This document shows positions 33,961-41,450 of a stretch of 64,000 nucleotides of DNA, one piece after another. The position numbers and the translations under genes are program-made. The notes beneath the pieces were generated by a model. It was not told the origin of the DNA and did no database searches. It saw nothing but the letters and a program-made list of their open reading frames with translations. The stretch is from Natrinema salifodinae (GTDB lineage Archaea > Halobacteriota > Halobacteria > Halobacteriales > Natrialbaceae): contig NZ_FOIS01000001.1 of assembly GCF_900110455.1 (NCBI RefSeq), forward strand, positions 310,001 to 374,000. The letters are read 5' to 3'. How positions within the stretch are numbered: the first letter of the stretch is position 1; each line of letters begins with the position of its first letter.

Positions 33961-35124
33961 TCAGACCGCGTACGTGACCTCGTCGAACTCGAAGAACGCC
34001 GTCTCGTAGCCGTCGTGCCGGGAGACCTGCGGCGGGGAATCGACGGTGACCGTCACGCGGTCGTCGTCCGCGAGGTCCTCAACGACGAGTCCGTAGTGGT
34101 GGCCGAACTCGCCGTCGAGCGTCTCCGCGAGCGTTTCCTCTCGGACGATCGAGCCGTCGCGCTCGACGGTGGCGGACAGGGACGTAAACGGGAGGATGAT
34201 CTCGTTGTAGGGCGTTCTGGGACAGACCGCCAGGTACGACCCGTCGGTATCGGCGTCGGTAAACCGATTCGCGTCCGCGACGAACGTCGCGAATTTCGCG
34301 TCGCCGCTGCGGTCGGTGCCGAGGTGTTCGCCGGGGAGGTCCTCGATCGCGGGCTCTCGTCCCATCGGCCGCTGCCCGTGCTCGTCGCCATGTCCGTCAC
34401 CGCCGTGTCCGGAGCCGTTGTCGTGACCGCCGTCGCCGCCGTCGCCGTGTTCCATCAGCGGGAGCGCATCGCGGCTGCCCCGCCGCTCCTTGTCGATCGT
34501 TTCGAACGAGAGGTCGTGGACGGCCGATCGCTCGTACTCGAAGTCGACCTCGAGCGTTCCCATCGACTCCAGGCGTCCCTCGAACGCGCCGGTCCGGTCG
34601 ACCCGCGAGACGGGGCCGACCTGCACGCGGGCCGTGTACTCGCCCTCGCCGGGGAGGCGGACGTTGTCGCCGTAGTGAAAGCCCATCCGCTGGGAGAGCA
34701 TCGGCCACGGCGAGGAGATACCGGTGTCGACCATCGATCCGTCCTGTAGAATATCGAGGCGCATGTCCACCGGAAGGACGGTGTGGGTCTCCCGGTCCCA
34801 GACGGTGAGCATGAGGTGGAGGCTGTCGTCGGCGTCGACCTCGACGAGTTCCTTGCCCTCGTCGACGGCTTCCACGATCCAGAACCGGTGAGGGAACGTG
34901 TACGAGAGCGCGACGCCGTAGTCGCCGTCGGTCGCCGTGCCGTAGGTCCCCATCTCCTCGCGGGAGGCCGGGAGGTAGACGGCGTCGGGGCGGTTCTCAA
35001 CGAGCGGCGGGTTCGCCCAGGCCGATTCTTCTTCGAAGCCGAGTCGCTCGAGACAGCCGGCGGTGCCGACCGTTCCGGCGGCTCCGACTGCGGCCGTGCC
35101 ACGGAGGAAACCCCGGCGATTCAT
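33961..35124 (-). CDS. Tat lipoprotein with His-rich stretch (DUF7350, iron-transport P19/Tp34-like)
   Basis: 387 residues from ATG 35124. The signal NRRGFLRGTAAVGAAGTVGT has a twin-arginine motif and ends in the lipobox TAGC with Cys24, so it is anchored outside the membrane. Residues ~45-215 form a beta-sandwich resembling P19/Tp34-type iron-binding proteins (DYGVALSYTFPHRFWIVE; THTVLPVDMRLDI). A His/Gly/Asp stretch, HGDGGDGGHDNGSGHGGDG near 235-253, looks like a metal buffer. A second beta domain (about 285-380) follows. It is divergent from sco-tlpA-ccdA. I infer a metal-binding surface protein of a copper or iron handling locus. Confidence 0.8.
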   Translation of the reverse strand: MNRRGFLRGTAAVGAAGTVGTAGCLERLGFEEESAWANPPLVENRPDAVYLPASREEMGTYGTATDGDYGVALSYTFPHRFWIVEAVDEGKELVEVDADDSLHLMLTVWDRETHTVLPVDMRLDILQDGSMVDTGISSPWPMLSQRMGFHYGDNVRLPGEGEYTARVQVGPVSRVDRTGAFEGRLESMGTLEVDFEYERSAVHDLSFETIDKERRGSRDALPLMEHGDGGDGGHDNGSGHGGDGHGDEHGQRPMGREPAIEDLPGEHLGTDRSGDAKFATFVADANRFTDADTDGSYLAVCPRTPYNEIILPFTSLSATVERDGSIVREETLAETLDGEFGHHYGLVVEDLADDDRVTVTVDSPPQVSRHDGYETAFFEFDEVTYAV

Positions 35125-35304
35125 CGGTCCGTCCTTGGAACCCGCCGACAAAACGCCTGTTGGTTCACCGATCGAAGGCCGGGCCGCTCTCCGGCGACTC
35201 TCCCGTCGAATCGGCCCGCTCCGTCGGTAATCGATCGACGGCTGAACGGCGTCTTCGGTGCTCGAACCAATGAACCTTTGATTGCGGGTTCCTACGAGTT
35301 AGAC

Positions 35305-36078
35305 ATGGACCGGCGGACCTATCTCGGCTCACTCGGGGCGACAGGACTCGCGAGCGTCGCCGGCTGTCTCGGCGATACCCTCGGCGGCTCTGGCGGGGAC
35401 GACGGTGACGGAGACACCGATACCGACGATCGCGTCGACGACTCCGATACCGTCCTCGGATTTGCGGACGAGCGCCGCGGCGATCCGTCGTACCCGATCC
35501 ACGGCGAGGAGTTCCCGTCGTTTTCGATTCAGAACCCGCTCGCGGGCGAATCGGTCTCGCTGGACGATTTCGTCGGCGAGCGCTCGTTCCTGATAACGTA
35601 CTTCTTCACATCTTGCCCCGACGGCGTGTGTCCGATGTTGCTCCAACACTTCAACCGGGTACAGAAAGACGCCGCCGAGAGCGGGTACGAGGACGATATC
35701 GCCCTGCTCGCGGTGACGTTCGACCCCGAGCGTGACACGCCCGACGCTCTCGAAACGTACGGCGCCCAACAGGGGATCGACTACGAGGCCGACAACTGGC
35801 ACTTCCTCCGGCCGGAGAACAACGACGACGCCCTGACGCTCGTCAACGACACCTTCGGCGTCCCGGTCAAGCAAGTCGAGGACGGCGAGCACGCTGACCA
35901 CGACTCGTCGGACCACGACCACGGCGAGTACACGTTCACCCACTCGGCCCTCGTCGAACTCGTCAACGACCGCGGGATCGTCGAGCGCGCGTACCCGAGT
36001 GCGGCGACCCAGCGCGAGGCGGTTAACACCGAAGTGATCGTCGAGGACACGCGAACGGTCGTGGGGGTGGACGAGTAG
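35305..36078 (+). CDS. SCO1/SenC-family protein (Tat lipoprotein)
   Basis: 257 residues from ATG 35305. The N-terminus is a Tat-type lipoprotein signal (DRRTYLGSLGATGLASVAGC, Cys21), then a Gly/Asp linker to ~50. The thioredoxin-like fold shows the Cu-site stretch TSCPDGVCPML with Cys104 and Cys109 and the conserved His213 in TFTHSALVELV. In known SCO proteins the cysteines are spaced CxxxC (CPDxC); here there is one more residue. SCO proteins deliver copper to cytochrome oxidase CuA or act as thiol reductases. A His/Asp-rich loop (EHADHDSSDHDHGEY, about 195-209) precedes the His. First gene of a tight operon (2-base gap to tlpA). Confidence 0.88.
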   Translation: MDRRTYLGSLGATGLASVAGCLGDTLGGSGGDDGDGDTDTDDRVDDSDTVLGFADERRGDPSYPIHGEEFPSFSIQNPLAGESVSLDDFVGERSFLITYFFTSCPDGVCPMLLQHFNRVQKDAAESGYEDDIALLAVTFDPERDTPDALETYGAQQGIDYEADNWHFLRPENNDDALTLVNDTFGVPVKQVEDGEHADHDSSDHDHGEYTFTHSALVELVNDRGIVERAYPSAATQREAVNTEVIVEDTRTVVGVDE

Positions 36079-36080
36079 CG

Positions 36081-36728
36081 ATGCGCCGACGCGACGTCCT
36101 CGCCGGCCTGGGCAGCGCGGGCGTGCTCGCCGGCGCCGGCGCCGTCGCGGCCTTCGGTATTCCCTCCGGGAACGATACGAACCCCAAAGAGGGCGAGGCG
36201 GCGAACGAATCCGACGAGTCCGACGACGGCTCCGGCGGTCTCATCGGTCGCCGACACGAGCCCTACGAGATCGAGACGGTCGACGCGCCCGGAAGCGAGG
36301 CCGGCACGATACAAGTACCGCCCCCGAACGAGCCGCTGTTCATCGACTTCTTCGGGACCTGGTGCGATCCCTGTATTAAACAGATGGACGCGCTCGGCGC
36401 GGCCCACGAGCGAGTCGGCGACCAGATTACCTTCCTCTCCGTGACCCACGAACGGGTCGGCCAGTCGCTCACCGAGGACGAACTCGTCGCCTGGTGGGAC
36501 GAACACGACGGGCACTGGACGCTCGGCCTCGATCCGACCGTAGAGCTTGGCGCCCGATACTGGGGGACGAGCTATCCGACCGCCGTGGCCATCGACGCGA
36601 GCGGCCGCGTCCGGTGGCACGAAACCGGACCGAAGACGGCGGACGAGCTCGTCGCTGGGATTGAACGGGCGCTCGACGGCGAGGACGAGGGCGAGGGAGA
36701 CGAATCCAACGCGACCGAGGCCGAATAA
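36081..36728 (+). CDS. TlpA/ResA-like thiol-disulfide oxidoreductase
   Basis: 215 residues. An RRRDVLAGLGSAGVLAGAG Tat-like or membrane-anchor start (2-20), an acidic Asn/Glu/Ser linker to ~58, then a thioredoxin fold with the redox centre FFGTWCDPC (Cys95 and Cys98) and the cis-Pro segment TSYPTAVAIDASG. It reduces disulfides outside the membrane, for apocytochrome c heme attachment or SCO/CuA cysteines. Two bases from sco and two bases before ccdA, so clearly one message. Confidence 0.92.
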   Translation: MRRRDVLAGLGSAGVLAGAGAVAAFGIPSGNDTNPKEGEAANESDESDDGSGGLIGRRHEPYEIETVDAPGSEAGTIQVPPPNEPLFIDFFGTWCDPCIKQMDALGAAHERVGDQITFLSVTHERVGQSLTEDELVAWWDEHDGHWTLGLDPTVELGARYWGTSYPTAVAIDASGRVRWHETGPKTADELVAGIERALDGEDEGEGDESNATEAE

Positions 36729-36730
36729 GA

Positions 36731-37405
36731 ATGGTCGACGCGGTGGAAACTACCTCGATCGTCTTCGCGCTGACCTCCGGCATCGCTACCTTCTTCTCCC
36801 CGTGTGCGTACCCGCTCCTGCCCGGCTACGTCGGCTTCTACGTGAGCCAGACCGACGGCGAGCGGGCGTCGCTGGGCGGCGCGCTGAGCCGCGGGCTGTT
36901 CGCCGGACTGGGCGTCCTGGTCACGTTCGCCGCCCTGCTCGGCGCCACCTTCATGCTCAGCTACTCGACGCTGTCGACCGTCAAGTGGTTCGAGGTGCTC
37001 GCCGGCCTGATCCTGATCGCGTTCGGCCTGGTGACCGCTGCCGGCCGCGCGCCGTCGCTCTCGATCACGCTCCCGAAGCGGCGCTCGAGCGTGCTCGGCT
37101 TCGCGATCTTCGGCGTCGGCTACGCGCTGGCCGCGGCCGGCTGCGTCGCGCCGGTGTTCTTCGGCATCGTCACCCGCGCACTGTCGCTGCCGACCGGCGA
37201 GGCGACGGTCCTCCTCGGGACGTACGTCGGGAGCATCGTCGCCCTCATGGTCTCGTTGACCGTCGCGACCGGCATGGGCCTGGTCGCCGGTGCCGGCCGG
37301 TTCGCGGCCTACTCCGACCCGCTGAAGCGGGTCGCAGGCGCGGTGATGATCGTCGCCGGGATCGGCCAGCTGTACCTCGCGATCGTCGTGCTCGACGCGA
37401 TCTGA
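36731..37405 (+). CDS. ccdA: CcdA/DsbD-type cytochrome c biogenesis membrane protein
   Basis: 224 residues with six membrane segments (about 8-30, 50-75, 85-105, 120-148, 155-180, 195-222). The two membrane cysteines, Cys25 in FFSPCAYPLLPGYVGFY and Cys138 in GYALAAAGCVAPVFFG, pass electrons from cytosolic thioredoxin to external TlpA. The conserved PCxxPLxPGY pattern is intact. End of the sco-tlpA-ccdA operon. A tandem repeat starts over its stop codon. Confidence 0.94.
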   Translation: MVDAVETTSIVFALTSGIATFFSPCAYPLLPGYVGFYVSQTDGERASLGGALSRGLFAGLGVLVTFAALLGATFMLSYSTLSTVKWFEVLAGLILIAFGLVTAAGRAPSLSITLPKRRSSVLGFAIFGVGYALAAAGCVAPVFFGIVTRALSLPTGEATVLLGTYVGSIVALMVSLTVATGMGLVAGAGRFAAYSDPLKRVAGAVMIVAGIGQLYLAIVVLDAI

Positions 37406-37445
37406 CTCGGCGCTGACCCGGAACTGACCCGGCACTGACCCGGGC
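37402..37445 (+). repeat. 11-base tandem repeat at the ccdA stop
   Basis: Four units CTGACTCGGCG, CTGACCCGGAA, CTGACCCGGCA and CTGACCCGGGC; the first covers the TGA stop at 37403-37405 and each unit carries another TGA. Confidence 0.7.
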
Positions 37446-37513
37446 TCGTCTGCCCGGCAGGCAACGGCAGGTCAGGGATGTATCCCGCCGCCTGTCGAAC
37501 TCATAGGCGAGCA

Positions 37514-37936
37514 ATGTACCAGGACTTGGTGCTCGCGACGGACGGGAGCGACGCCGCCCGTCGAGCGACCGATCACGCGGTCGAGCTCGCGGCGCAACTC
37601 GACGCGACGCTGCACGTGGTGTCGGTCTCGGAGGACGGTCCGCAGGCCGAAGGGCAACAGGACCGCTTACGGAACGATCCGGAAGAGCAAGCGGCCGCGG
37701 CCGCCGAGGAGGCCGAAGAGATGGCGGCGGGAGCGGGCGTCGAGACGACGTCGTCGATCCGCCACGGCGTCCCGCAGGAACAGATCGTCGACTTCGCGGA
37801 GACGAACCCGGTCGACATGATCGTCGTCGGGACGGCCGGCCGATCCGGCCTCGATCACCTGATCTCGGGCAGCGTCGCCGAGGAGATCGTCCGGAACGCG
37901 CCGGTTCCCGTCGTTACGGTCCGGTCGGATACCTGA
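37514..37936 (+). CDS. Universal stress protein A family protein
   Basis: 140 residues from ATG 37514. The USP fold begins with the MYQDLVLATDGSDAARRATD signature (residues 1-20); the ATP-binding G-2x-G-9x-G(S/T) motif is visible as VGTAGRSGLDHLISGSVAEEI. It probably binds ATP and takes part in stress adaptation. An insert of Glu/Ala (EEQAAAAAEEAEEMAAGAG) in the middle is acidic, common in halophile USPs. It lies 108 bases after ccdA and may or may not share its message. Confidence 0.92.
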   Translation: MYQDLVLATDGSDAARRATDHAVELAAQLDATLHVVSVSEDGPQAEGQQDRLRNDPEEQAAAAAEEAEEMAAGAGVETTSSIRHGVPQEQIVDFAETNPVDMIVVGTAGRSGLDHLISGSVAEEIVRNAPVPVVTVRSDT

Positions 37937-38117: not shown

Positions 38118-41100
38118 ATGAGCGACAGCACCGCAACCGTCGTCGGCGACGCGCTGTGCGTGCTTGTCGTCGGCGACTCGGAATCCGCCGACGACGCGAC
38201 GGACGCGCTCGCCGCGGGACTCGGCGGCGCCGCAGTGCTCCGGGAGCGAACGGTCGCGGACGCCCTCGATCGACTCGCCGATCGTCGGGTCCACTGTCTC
38301 GTCTGTCCGTTCGCGGCCGATCGAACTGCCCCATCCGACGCGACGCTCGAGCGGCTCGCGGCCCGCACCGACGAGCGTCCGATCGTCGCCGTCACCGCCG
38401 GCGTCGACGCCGACCGGGCGCTCGAGATCGGCGCGACCGACGTCGTCGATCGCGACGCGTCCCCCGCGGTCGTGGCCGCCCGCGTCAGGAACGCCGCCGA
38501 GCGCGAGCACTACCGAACCGCCGCGTCGCGGGCGGACCGTAGCCACCGCTCGATCCTTGAGCACGCCGCGGCGGTCGTCTGGGTCCTCGACGCGGACGGC
38601 GAGATCGAGTACGCCAGCCCGGCGGTCGAAGCACAATTCGGGTACACGCCGGCCGAACTCGAGCGAACGTCGCTCCCCGGGCTCGTCCATCCGGACGATC
38701 GCGAGACGGCCCGCGACGTCCTCGCGTCCGTCGCCGCGGCCCCGCTCGGGACGAGCGAGCGGGCCACCCTGCGGCTCGGCCGCTCCGACGGCACCTGGCG
38801 CGTCGCGGCGCTGACCTGCACGAACCGGCTCGCTGACCCGACGGTCGAAGGGATCGTCGTCACCGTCACCGCCGAGTCGGACGCAGCGTCGACGGCACCA
38901 GGCGAATCGGACGGCGTCCGCGCGGCCGCGGATCGGCTCGGAAATCCCTTTTTTGCGCTCGGACAGCGCGACGAGATTCGATACGCCAATCCGGCGGCGA
39001 TGCGGTTGTTCGCCGGCCCGGGACCCGACGACGATGGAGGATCGAGTACCGTCGACGCGCCCGACGGCCCGGCCGATTTGACCGGTACCGTCGTCTGGGC
39101 CCTCCTCCCCGACAGCGTCGCCGAGACGGTCTACGAGCGGGTCCGCGAGGCCCAGACGACCGGCTCCGTCGTCGAGTTCGAGGTGCCGGACCCCGCCGAC
39201 GGGCGTGCGTCGCCCCTCGCCGTTTCCGTTCATCCTGCCCGCGACGGTGACGACGGTGTGTCCGTCTACGCGCGCGAGCAGCCCACCGACGCGACCTCGC
39301 CGGTCCGGGACCGCCTCGATCTCCTCGAATCGGTTGTCGACGCGCTCGACGACGGGGTCGCCGTTCTCGAGGACGACGGGGAGGGCGAAAGCGAGAACGG
39401 GGGCGAGACGATCCGCCTGGCCAACCCGGCGCTGCTGGAACTCGCCGACGCGGACGCGCTCGTCGGTCGCGGCCTCGACGCGGTCTTCGACGACGACCTG
39501 GCGGCGGCGATCCGCGAGCGCGCCCGATCGCCGGTCGTCCGGTGGATGGACCCTGTCACCGGCGACCTCGTGACCGACGGGGATGCGGGAACCGACGGCG
39601 CCGCGCGGATCCCGGTCGACGTCTTCGTGGCTCCGCTGTCCGATCCCGATCGAACGCTCTGCGTGGTCCGCGACAGGCGCGACTCCGCGGCCGCGGCGCT
39701 GTCGATCCTCAGCCGGGCCGTCACCGCCCTCCGCGGCGTTGAGACGCCGGCCGCCGTCCGCGAGACCGTCGTCGATGCCGTTCGCGACTACGTCGCTGCG
39801 GACGTCGCCGCCTGGTACGTCGCCGACGACCGGCTCCGGCCGGCGGCGGTCACGGTGGCGGACCGAATCGCGGACGGCGAGTCGGGGATCGACCTCCCGT
39901 CGATCGATCCCGAGGGCACGCCGCTGGTCGACCCGACGGAGCGCAGCGAGCGCGCAGAACGCGGCGAGCCGACCGTCTACGACGGGGCGGCGCTCGCCGG
40001 CGCGCTCGTTCGCGCCGGGCTCCGCGCCGAGCGGGTCCTGGCCGTCCCGATCGGCGAGCGCGGCGTCGTCCTCGCGACCAGCACGGAGCCGATGGCCTTC
40101 GAGGGGGTCGATCTCGAGCCGGTCGCGGCGCTGTCGGACGCCGCGACCGGCGCGCTCGACGGCCTCGAGCGCGCCGCCGACCTCCGATCGTGTCGCCGCG
40201 ATCGATCCCGACTCGCGACCGTCGCCGACCGGACGACCCGACTGTGGGCCGCCGAGCGGTCGTTTTTCGACGCCGACACGCGCGACGCGGTCGAACGACG
40301 GCTCTGCGAAGCGGTGCTCTCGTTGTCGCCCCTCGAGTCGGACGCCGAACTCGAACTCGCCTGGTGCGGTCGCGTCGACGACGGCCGCGAGACGATCACC
40401 CCGGCCGCGTGGGCCGGCCGCGACGGCGAGTTCCTCGAGTCGCTGTCGGTCCCGCTCGGGGAGACCGACGCGCCGACGGGGATCGCCGCGGCGACCAGTG
40501 AGTCTGTCGATATCGCGGATCTCGATGATCTTGCATTCGACGAGCCGGGCCGGCCGGCCGAGGACGACCGAGCCTGGCGCCGGCGCGCGCTCGAGCGCGG
40601 GTTCCGCTCCGTCCTGTGCGTCCCGATCGCGTCCGGCGGCGTTCGCCACGGGACGCTCACCGTCTACGCCGACCGGCCGTCGGCGTTCGACGACCGCACC
40701 GAGCGCGCCTGCGAGCACCTCGCGGGGATCGCCGGCGCCGCGATCGGGACGATCGAGACGACCCGCGCGCTGCTCGCCGATGGAATCACCGAACTCGAGG
40801 TCGCCCTCCGGGACGAGACGGAGCCGCTGTCGGCGATCGCCCGCCGGCTCGGTCGGCGGATCGACGTGCGATCCGTGATCCCCCGGTCGTCCGGCGGCTC
40901 GACGGTATTCTGTACGGTCTCCGAGACCGATTCGGACGCGGTTCGCGACGCGATCGAGTCGCTGTCGGCGGTCGAATCGATCGCGAGCGTCAGTCCGACG
41001 AACGGCGAGACGGCCCTCGAACTCGTCCTGACCGACGACACCGTCGCGCGGGCGGTCGCGGACGCCGGCGGCGTCCTCCGCTCGCTCGCTCCCGTCGACG

Positions 41101-41450
41101 ATCGGGCCAGGCTCACGATCGAACTCGGAACCCCCGTCGCCGTTCGGTCGTTCGTCCGCGCGCTCGAACGGACGTACCCCGGCACGGAACTGGTTGCGCG
41201 CCGGGAACGCGATCGGCCGCTGCGGTCGACCCGCCCGAAACCGTTCGACGACCTGGCGGCTCACCTCTCGGAGCGACAGCGGCGGACGCTCGAGGCGGCC
41301 TACTACGGCGGCTTCTTCGAGTGGCCCCGCGAGCGCACCGGCGAGGAAGTCGCTGAGTCGCTGGGTGTCTCCCAGCCGACGTTCAGTCGTCACCTCCGCC
41401 TGGCCCAGCGAAAGCTGTTCGCGCTGTTGTTCGATGAGACCCAGGACTGA
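38118..41450 (+). CDS. Large Bat-like multi-sensor regulator with HTH_10
   Basis: 1110 residues. Order: receiver-like domain (about 12-130) without the phosphoacceptor Asp (VHCLVCPFAADRT), a PAS domain (143-255; ILEHAAAVVWVLDADGEIEY), a PAS-like unit (260-385), another (about 400-510), two GAF-like domains (about 535-690 and 710-870), the BAT domain (about 880-1040) and HTH_10 (about 1055-1108; AYYGGFFEWPRERTGEEVAE). It is a large one-component sensor of unknown signal. No kinase is present. The C-terminal half is similar to the gene at 22662, so they are paralogues. Strong codon bias for GC and high Arg/Asp content fit the host. Confidence 0.87.
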   Translation: MSDSTATVVGDALCVLVVGDSESADDATDALAAGLGGAAVLRERTVADALDRLADRRVHCLVCPFAADRTAPSDATLERLAARTDERPIVAVTAGVDADRALEIGATDVVDRDASPAVVAARVRNAAEREHYRTAASRADRSHRSILEHAAAVVWVLDADGEIEYASPAVEAQFGYTPAELERTSLPGLVHPDDRETARDVLASVAAAPLGTSERATLRLGRSDGTWRVAALTCTNRLADPTVEGIVVTVTAESDAASTAPGESDGVRAAADRLGNPFFALGQRDEIRYANPAAMRLFAGPGPDDDGGSSTVDAPDGPADLTGTVVWALLPDSVAETVYERVREAQTTGSVVEFEVPDPADGRASPLAVSVHPARDGDDGVSVYAREQPTDATSPVRDRLDLLESVVDALDDGVAVLEDDGEGESENGGETIRLANPALLELADADALVGRGLDAVFDDDLAAAIRERARSPVVRWMDPVTGDLVTDGDAGTDGAARIPVDVFVAPLSDPDRTLCVVRDRRDSAAAALSILSRAVTALRGVETPAAVRETVVDAVRDYVAADVAAWYVADDRLRPAAVTVADRIADGESGIDLPSIDPEGTPLVDPTERSERAERGEPTVYDGAALAGALVRAGLRAERVLAVPIGERGVVLATSTEPMAFEGVDLEPVAALSDAATGALDGLERAADLRSCRRDRSRLATVADRTTRLWAAERSFFDADTRDAVERRLCEAVLSLSPLESDAELELAWCGRVDDGRETITPAAWAGRDGEFLESLSVPLGETDAPTGIAAATSESVDIADLDDLAFDEPGRPAEDDRAWRRRALERGFRSVLCVPIASGGVRHGTLTVYADRPSAFDDRTERACEHLAGIAGAAIGTIETTRALLADGITELEVALRDETEPLSAIARRLGRRIDVRSVIPRSSGGSTVFCTVSETDSDAVRDAIESLSAVESIASVSPTNGETALELVLTDDTVARAVADAGGVLRSLAPVDDRARLTIELGTPVAVRSFVRALERTYPGTELVARRERDRPLRSTRPKPFDDLAAHLSERQRRTLEAAYYGGFFEWPRERTGEEVAESLGVSQPTFSRHLRLAQRKLFALLFDETQD

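Follow-up and report, generated by a model that had tools for sequence, protein, structure and literature searches.

We analysed a 64,000-nucleotide window of Natrinema salifodinae (Natrialbaceae; contig NZ_FOIS01000001.1, positions 310,001 to 374,000, forward strand), in which the gene for a twin-arginine translocation (Tat) lipoprotein faces a divergent sco-tlpA-ccdA operon that is followed by a gene for a universal stress protein (USP). A preliminary description of this DNA had proposed these five genes and two-base gaps within the operon, and both proved accurate: every gene lies where it had been placed, and the plus-strand gaps between sco, tlpA and ccdA are exactly two bases each. The features of the locus, in window coordinates, are as follows.

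33961..35124, minus strand: Tat lipoprotein, 387 residues, with two apparent P19-type domains (about residues 55-204 and 265-387), a His-rich linker between them and lipobox Cys24
34375..34449, minus strand: lipoprotein residues 226-250, the His-rich linker, which varies among relatives
35160..35176, minus strand: promoter element TTCGATCGGTGAACCAA, ending 35 nt before the lipoprotein ATG
35254..35270, plus strand: promoter element TTCGGTGCTCGAACCAA, ending 34 nt before the SCO ATG
35305..36078, plus strand: Tat lipoprotein of the SCO1/SenC family; cysteines in CPDGVC (C-x4-C), plus an internal loop rich in His/Asp
36081..36728, plus strand: TlpA-like thioredoxin, membrane-anchored, with WCDPC
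36731..37405, plus strand: CcdA/DsbD_TM-like membrane thiol reductase with cysteines in SPC...AGCVAP
37514..37936, plus strand: USP, a syntenic neighbour (PF00582, 121 bits)
38118..41450, plus strand: PAS-GAF-BAT-HTH_10 regulator, near the operon in 23/29 sco loci

The best start of the lipoprotein is the ATG at 35124 (MNRRGFLRG, with the Tat motif; minus strand, stop at 33961); the promoter element sits at the expected distance from this ATG, which makes a longer form starting at TTG 35151 less likely. SCO matches PF02630 at 61.2 bits (Pfam cut-off, 22.8), and its closest solved relatives are Bacillus subtilis Sco1 and human SCO1. Both TlpA (Redoxin, 25.8 bits; cut-off, 26.6) and CcdA (19.1 bits; cut-off, 27.1) score below their Pfam thresholds; WCDPC is present in TlpA, a CxxC motif occurs in 31/32 TlpA frames at the loci compared and both cysteine motifs in 25/31 CcdA frames, and the Halosolutus orthologues are annotated as TlpA and CcdA. 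The spacing of the SCO cysteines is C-x4-C, not C-x3-C: the motif is CPDGVC, encoded at 35614-35631. Of the 46 different SCO sequences encoded at the loci compared, 42 have the same spacing (a pattern search gave 36, and 6 that lack the following proline were read from the sequences), and the other 4 have C-x3-C. The C-x3-C copper motif of solved SCO proteins is absent from the window SCO, whose family membership is by profile.

Predicted fold and proposed metal site of the lipoprotein

As the preliminary description had claimed, the lipoprotein carries an iron-transport-like domain: it matches PF10634 (Iron_transport) at 26.5 bits (cut-off, 21), a paralogue in the same genome scores 26.6 bits, and the C terminus corresponds to PF24041 (DUF7350; 3.5e-53). 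We aligned 61 proteins, chosen by us from 80 collected loci together with the window protein, and a profile of these relatives retrieves Brucella FtrA among PDB entries (E = 1.7e-7). An AlphaFold model based on the 61-row alignment (mean predicted local distance difference test [pLDDT] score, 86.9; predicted template modelling score, 0.85) predicts that domain 1 has the P19 fold of a copper-binding periplasmic protein. With residues 55-204 of this model, VIA-align matches copper-bound HftA (8t7l) with a Z score of 12.7 (root mean square deviation, 2.5 over 134 residues), FetP with 12.3, P19 (3lzl) with 11.7 and FtrA with 11.4, and the P19-type matches as a group (Z, 12.7 to 10.9) stand above unrelated rows. 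Comparison of the two domain profiles by hhalign (probability, 93.6; E = 2.2e-7) aligns the HYG containing H150 with the HYG containing H343, and the protein is apparently a tandem duplication of P19/FetP-type domains. The case for duplication rests on this profile comparison and the repeated HYG because the VIA-align search of the model lists no P19 row for domain 2, for which the top row is 3uc2 (DUF4426; Z, 10.3). The His-rich stretch singled out in the preliminary description is present in the window protein but is not conserved, with four or more His in just 16 of the 61 aligned relatives and 0 to 2 in several close orthologues; we therefore regard it as a variable linker and ruled it out as a defining feature. 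The paralogue (∼40% identity; L072:1643-2944, contig 2 of the window genome) lies between enoyl-CoA hydratase/MenB-like and UbiA/MenA-like genes, an arrangement to which that of locus L077 is similar.

Residues H79, H103, M105, M142, M147, H150, N154, R369, and H370 are invariant in all 61 aligned relatives, and H343 is kept in 53. Two of these, M142 and H150, fall on the Met and His of PM....HYG in the alignment with FtrA. We take the copper ligands of P19 to be His42, Met88, His95, and His132; residues named in PDB titles include Met88, Glu44, and Asp92 of P19, Met90 and Glu46 of FetP, and His151 of FtrA. H103 and M105 would then be equivalent to His42 and Glu44 of P19, with Met105 in the place of Glu44. 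The acidic Asp92 of P19 is not kept, its column holding R in 23 relatives, Q in 16, N in 10, T in 6, P in 3, E in 2, S in 1, and Asp in none; this comparison covers the Asp92 column, since Glu3, Glu44, and Asp46 fall at positions without reliable alignment. PMC9174327 describes these four acidic residues (Glu3, Glu44, Asp46, and Asp92) as the ones that bind Mn or iron in P19. At the position aligned with the GRH-motif His (mutated in FtrA H151A), domain 1 has no His; domain 2 has the invariant pair R369-H370, which, by the hhalign comparison of the domains, may be the equivalent of this motif. P19 proteins bind copper according to PDB titles, and copper is also the metal that we infer for the haloarchaeal lipoprotein.

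Genomic linkage, the membrane partner and the shared promoter element

We compared gene neighborhoods in a family set of 125 Natrialbaceae genomes, in which, among the matches listed, the lipoprotein query was matched in 120 genomes and the SCO query in 122. The lipoproteins closest to ours, delimited by our own cut (matches of at least 271 bits, and a further match of 255 bits that is 55% identical) and termed clade A, occupy 69 places. Among the matches listed, 64 of these 69 lie within 6 kb of sco, always divergent and in many genera (48 at 88 to 572 bp and 16 at 1.6 to 5 kb), and the other 5 have no sco on the same contig; this recurrence across genera rules out chance linkage. Loss of co-conservation in other genomes had been named in the preliminary description as the finding that would undo the proposed grouping, and within Natrialbaceae the lipoprotein and sco-tlpA-ccdA do stay together. 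The 80 collected loci, divided by record title into 32 of Natrialbaceae type and 48 others, show where the linkage ends: sco is present at 29/32 of the former, with tlpA and ccdA in all 29, and at 1/48 of the latter, a Halococcaceae metagenome-assembled genome (L162) where ccdA-tlpA-sco and the lipoprotein gene converge, a different arrangement. The link to sco thus holds within Natrialbaceae and is not general, so that the earlier notion of a self-consistent module stands for this family, with its linkage and its common promoter element, but is not supported outside it, where the constant partner is another protein (below). A single old insertion with later losses may also account for the linkage. 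One further contig (genome G070; L191:3887-16222 and L192, ∼22 kb) carries, besides a second sco-tlpA-ccdA set, a ZIP-like gene, a copy of the lipoprotein gene in divergent orientation and a copy of the partner gene interrupted by stop codons.

The partner, which we call CL1, is a polytopic membrane protein of ∼470 residues with invariant histidines H372, H375, H422, and H430 (numbered as in L112), and it is CL1, not sco, that constantly accompanies the lipoprotein across haloarchaea. In several genera its gene separates the lipoprotein gene from sco; of the 16 clade-A loci with sco at 1.6 to 5 kb, 13 have it <2 kb from the lipoprotein. The CL1 gene is found at 40 of the 48 loci outside the family and takes three orientations relative to the lipoprotein gene. 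In the family set, 68 genomes have both genes, 48 neither, 8 CL1 only and 1, a genome of 67% completeness, the lipoprotein only (Fisher's test, 6e-25, ignoring relatedness); within three variable genera the two vary together (3/7, 3/9, and 7/10 genomes). The association is weaker in our sample of 53 order-level genomes outside the family, of which 27 have both genes, 3 CL1 only, 8 the lipoprotein only and 15 neither, and in which 12 of 48 CL1 matches lie <2 kb from the lipoprotein. CL1 has no match in Pfam or NCBIfam and no sequence relative in PDB, and a comparison of its model (pLDDT, 88.6) with PDB folds gave none that was convincing (best Foldseek E, 8.5e-3; top Z, 5.5), a lack that does not prove a new fold. 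FTR1 (PF03239), the permease that accompanies P19 in bacteria, was found in 0/125 family genomes by a search whose control was positive in 4/14 known genomes, and it was ruled out as the partner of the lipoprotein in this family.

The window genome encodes CL1 apart from the lipoprotein, on contig 3 at ∼46.8 to 48.2 kb (L189:9833-11236), flanked by a COX4_pro gene and a DUF7410 gene and then by genes for fused COX1/COX3 and COX2. This placement is common: CL1 lies <8 kb from the COX1/3 gene in at least 52 of the 76 CL1-bearing family genomes, the window genome included, and among the 68 genomes with both genes CL1 is by cox in at least 52, by the lipoprotein in 13, by both in 4, and by neither in 7. 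The lipoprotein and CL1 genes of Halobacterium noricense adjoin an ABC pair and a gene whose product has both NosL and NosD domains. Halobacterium hubeiense has a NosL/NosD-type neighbor (annotated as NosD) and an ABC pair as well; DsbA, DsbB, and a member of the COX15/CtaA family are also encoded there, and on its plasmid pSTJ003 (L230:9086-12916), the dsbB and dsbA genes lie between those of the lipoprotein and CL1 and are followed by the COX15/CtaA-family gene.

Both promoters in the 180-bp region between the lipoprotein and sco genes contain the pattern TTCG-N6-GAACCAA, and in the intergenic regions of 20 loci an element is present at each end in most rows. The pattern has 3 sites in the whole 4.27-Mb genome, 2 of them here, and read backwards it has none. 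The third site (contig 2, L196:6746-8515) precedes a tandem pair of TlpA paralogues, 36% and 38% identical to the window TlpA, of which the first starts ∼145 nt downstream; a 37-codon frame begins 34 nt after this site. Across 29 genomes of the genus we counted 93 sites, 27 before the lipoprotein, 29 before sco and 37 elsewhere, against a total of 13 for a control pattern. Spacing to the lipoprotein is 35 nt at 24 sites and 34 nt at 3, spacing to sco is 34 nt at all 29, and 25 of the 29 genomes have the element before both genes, suggesting that the lipoprotein and the sco operon are co-regulated in the cell. A candidate regulator of the module is the PAS-GAF-BAT-HTH_10 protein encoded at 38118..41450; two BAT/HTH_10 regulators lie downstream of the USP gene.

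Proposed copper handling and alternative explanations

We interpret the locus, with a probability of roughly 0.5, as an extracytoplasmic copper-handling module for CuA-type sites, whose targets are probably cytochrome oxidase and, in some relatives, nitrous oxide reductase. CcdA would pass electrons through the membrane to TlpA, which would keep the cysteines of SCO and of the target site reduced, and SCO would give the target either copper or thiol reduction. The tandem P19-type lipoprotein would bind copper at its His/Met site and hold it or pass it on, working with CL1, whose gene lies next to cytochrome oxidase genes elsewhere in the genome. The direction of metal transfer and the role of CL1 in this scheme are conjectural, as is the suggestion, already made in the preliminary description, that the lipoprotein may feed metal to SCO or shield it. 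A precedent for the operon is Bradyrhizobium, where TlpA reduces ScoI and CoxB and sco and tlpA form a pair for CuA maturation, according to PMC6696091. Genes for SCO and TlpA occur together in both systems; unlike the bradyrhizobial pair, the haloarchaeal genes form one operon with ccdA, SCO has C-x4-C, and a P19-type lipoprotein replaces the PCuAC proteins. The lipoprotein resembles PCu(A)C chaperones in its proposed role, that of an extracytoplasmic copper carrier acting with SCO. Their motif is given as H(M)x10Mx21HxM in the same paper (PMC6696091); the family search of the locus proteins gave no match to the PCu(A)C family, and the motif itself was not searched for.

Several observations weigh against a role in copper handling. 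The C-x4-C of SCO, as a sequence feature that departs from C-x3-C, may not bind copper in the same way; NCBI names the lipoprotein an iron transporter, and its P19 relatives of known function serve iron uptake. The SCO operon is also independent of the lipoprotein, since SCO is present in 122/125 family genomes (among the matches listed), many of which lack the lipoprotein (examples of sco-tlpA-ccdA without it are L058, L061, and L085). The promoter element likewise stays with sco in other genera, where it is exact in L058, from a genome that lacks the lipoprotein, and altered in others, and lipoproteins parted from sco by CL1 lack it; the element may be an operator or, because it tracks sco and misses lipoprotein promoters where CL1 intervenes, a core-promoter feature (transcription factor B recognition element/TATA region). 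Bacterial relatives of CL1 lie mostly in catabolic clusters, some on plasmids of Rhizobium, Sulfitobacter, and Mycolicibacterium, and among them only that of Sulfitobacter has a PCu(A)C gene beside it. Outside the family, a P1B ATPase is nearby in 23/48 loci, and the 4 that we examined look, by what we take to be their signature, ZntA-like (Zn/Cd) rather than copper-like; CDF transporters are also near the lipoprotein-CL1 pair on some plasmids.

Part of this evidence would fit iron acquisition of the P19 kind, in which the lipoprotein captures iron, TlpA and CcdA supply redox power as FetE and FetF do in Campylobacter, CL1 replaces FTR1, and SCO serves as a redox protein, a role that C-x4-C could allow. 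Such a system, for which the P19 fold and the PF10634 match also argue, has a parallel in fetMP-fetABCDEF, where, according to PMC6083913 and PMC10783030, P19 proteins accompany periplasmic thioredoxins in Campylobacter; moreover, the title of a 2020 Metallomics paper presents the copper site itself as required for iron transport by P19/FetP. We nevertheless consider iron acquisition unlikely, given that FTR1 is absent from 125/125 family genomes, that the acidic Asp92 has not been retained and Met105 takes the place expected for a Glu44-like residue, and that the neighbors are cox, nosD/nosL, and sco. The locus also differs from fetMP-fetABCDEF in having no FTR1-type permease and no equivalents of fetABCD, with SCO and CcdA in their stead. 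More broadly, the lipoprotein is like P19, FetP, FtrA, and HftA (PF10634) in its domain 1 fold, the Met and His of PM....HYG, its extracytoplasmic site and its thioredoxin-type company, and unlike them in being apparently tandem and a Tat lipoprotein, in its lack of Asp92, and in having CL1 instead of FTR1.

We give still less credence to the possibility that the lipoprotein and CL1 are a pair related to metal stress or efflux (zinc, cadmium, or copper) that an old insertion in one family happened to place next to sco-tlpA-ccdA. ZntA-like ATPases adjoin the pair on plasmids of Haloarcula, Haloferax, and others, with CDF transporters in some, and the near absence of sco outside Natrialbaceae agrees with such an origin; the constant orientation of the sco linkage across genera, the separate arrangement in Halococcaceae, the promoter element common to both sides, and the placement of CL1 by cox in at least 52 genomes do not. 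An equally improbable account makes the locus a general extracytoplasmic thiol-redox or stress system (CcdA-TlpA-SCO-USP) in which the lipoprotein is only carried along. In its favor, the reductants TlpA and CcdA are of a generic kind and the third promoter site precedes two more TlpA paralogues, but the lipoprotein is co-inherited with CL1 and remains at sco. The USP gene, which would belong to such a system, follows the operon with a match of >100 bits in 19/29 sco loci but is missing from several, even though sco-tlpA-ccdA is complete in 29/29; we treat USP as a syntenic neighbor whose functional tie is a candidate only.

Within the copper-handling interpretation, a bolder proposal is possible, which we hold tentatively and judge more doubtful than the general reading: that haloarchaea use the tandem P19-type lipoprotein and CL1 as a new two-component system to move copper to, or load it into, respiratory copper sites (CuA of cytochrome oxidase, nitrous oxide reductase). 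The system would replace PCuAC-type chaperones, its thiol-redox arm would be sco-tlpA-ccdA, and the promoter element common to both sides would be dedicated to it. The preliminary description could not name the combination of genes, and we did not find it in the literature searched either, although two of its pairings have precedents in the papers cited above (sco-tlpA in PMC6696091; P19 with thioredoxins in PMC6083913 and PMC10783030). Open-licence literature searched for haloarchaeal SCO/CcdA copper chaperones, DUF7350 with copper and oxidase, and haloarchaeal P19/Tat lipoprotein iron transporters gave, among the papers listed, no description of the module, and DUF7350 is mentioned in none of the 10 papers listed out of 23 for that subject. 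The parts are singly of known kinds, and it is their combination that is new: a tandem P19-type lipoprotein without FTR1, CL1, sco-tlpA-ccdA, and a C-x4-C SCO. Haloarchaeal "iron transporters" with PF10634 and DUF7350 may be misnamed, their site, partners, and neighbors pointing instead to copper and respiration; if so, haloarchaeal oxidases would gain a concrete route for copper loading, and CL1, a widespread membrane protein that is nameless in the libraries searched, a possible function. The lipoprotein-CL1 pair is also carried by relatives in Haloferax, which is genetically tractable.

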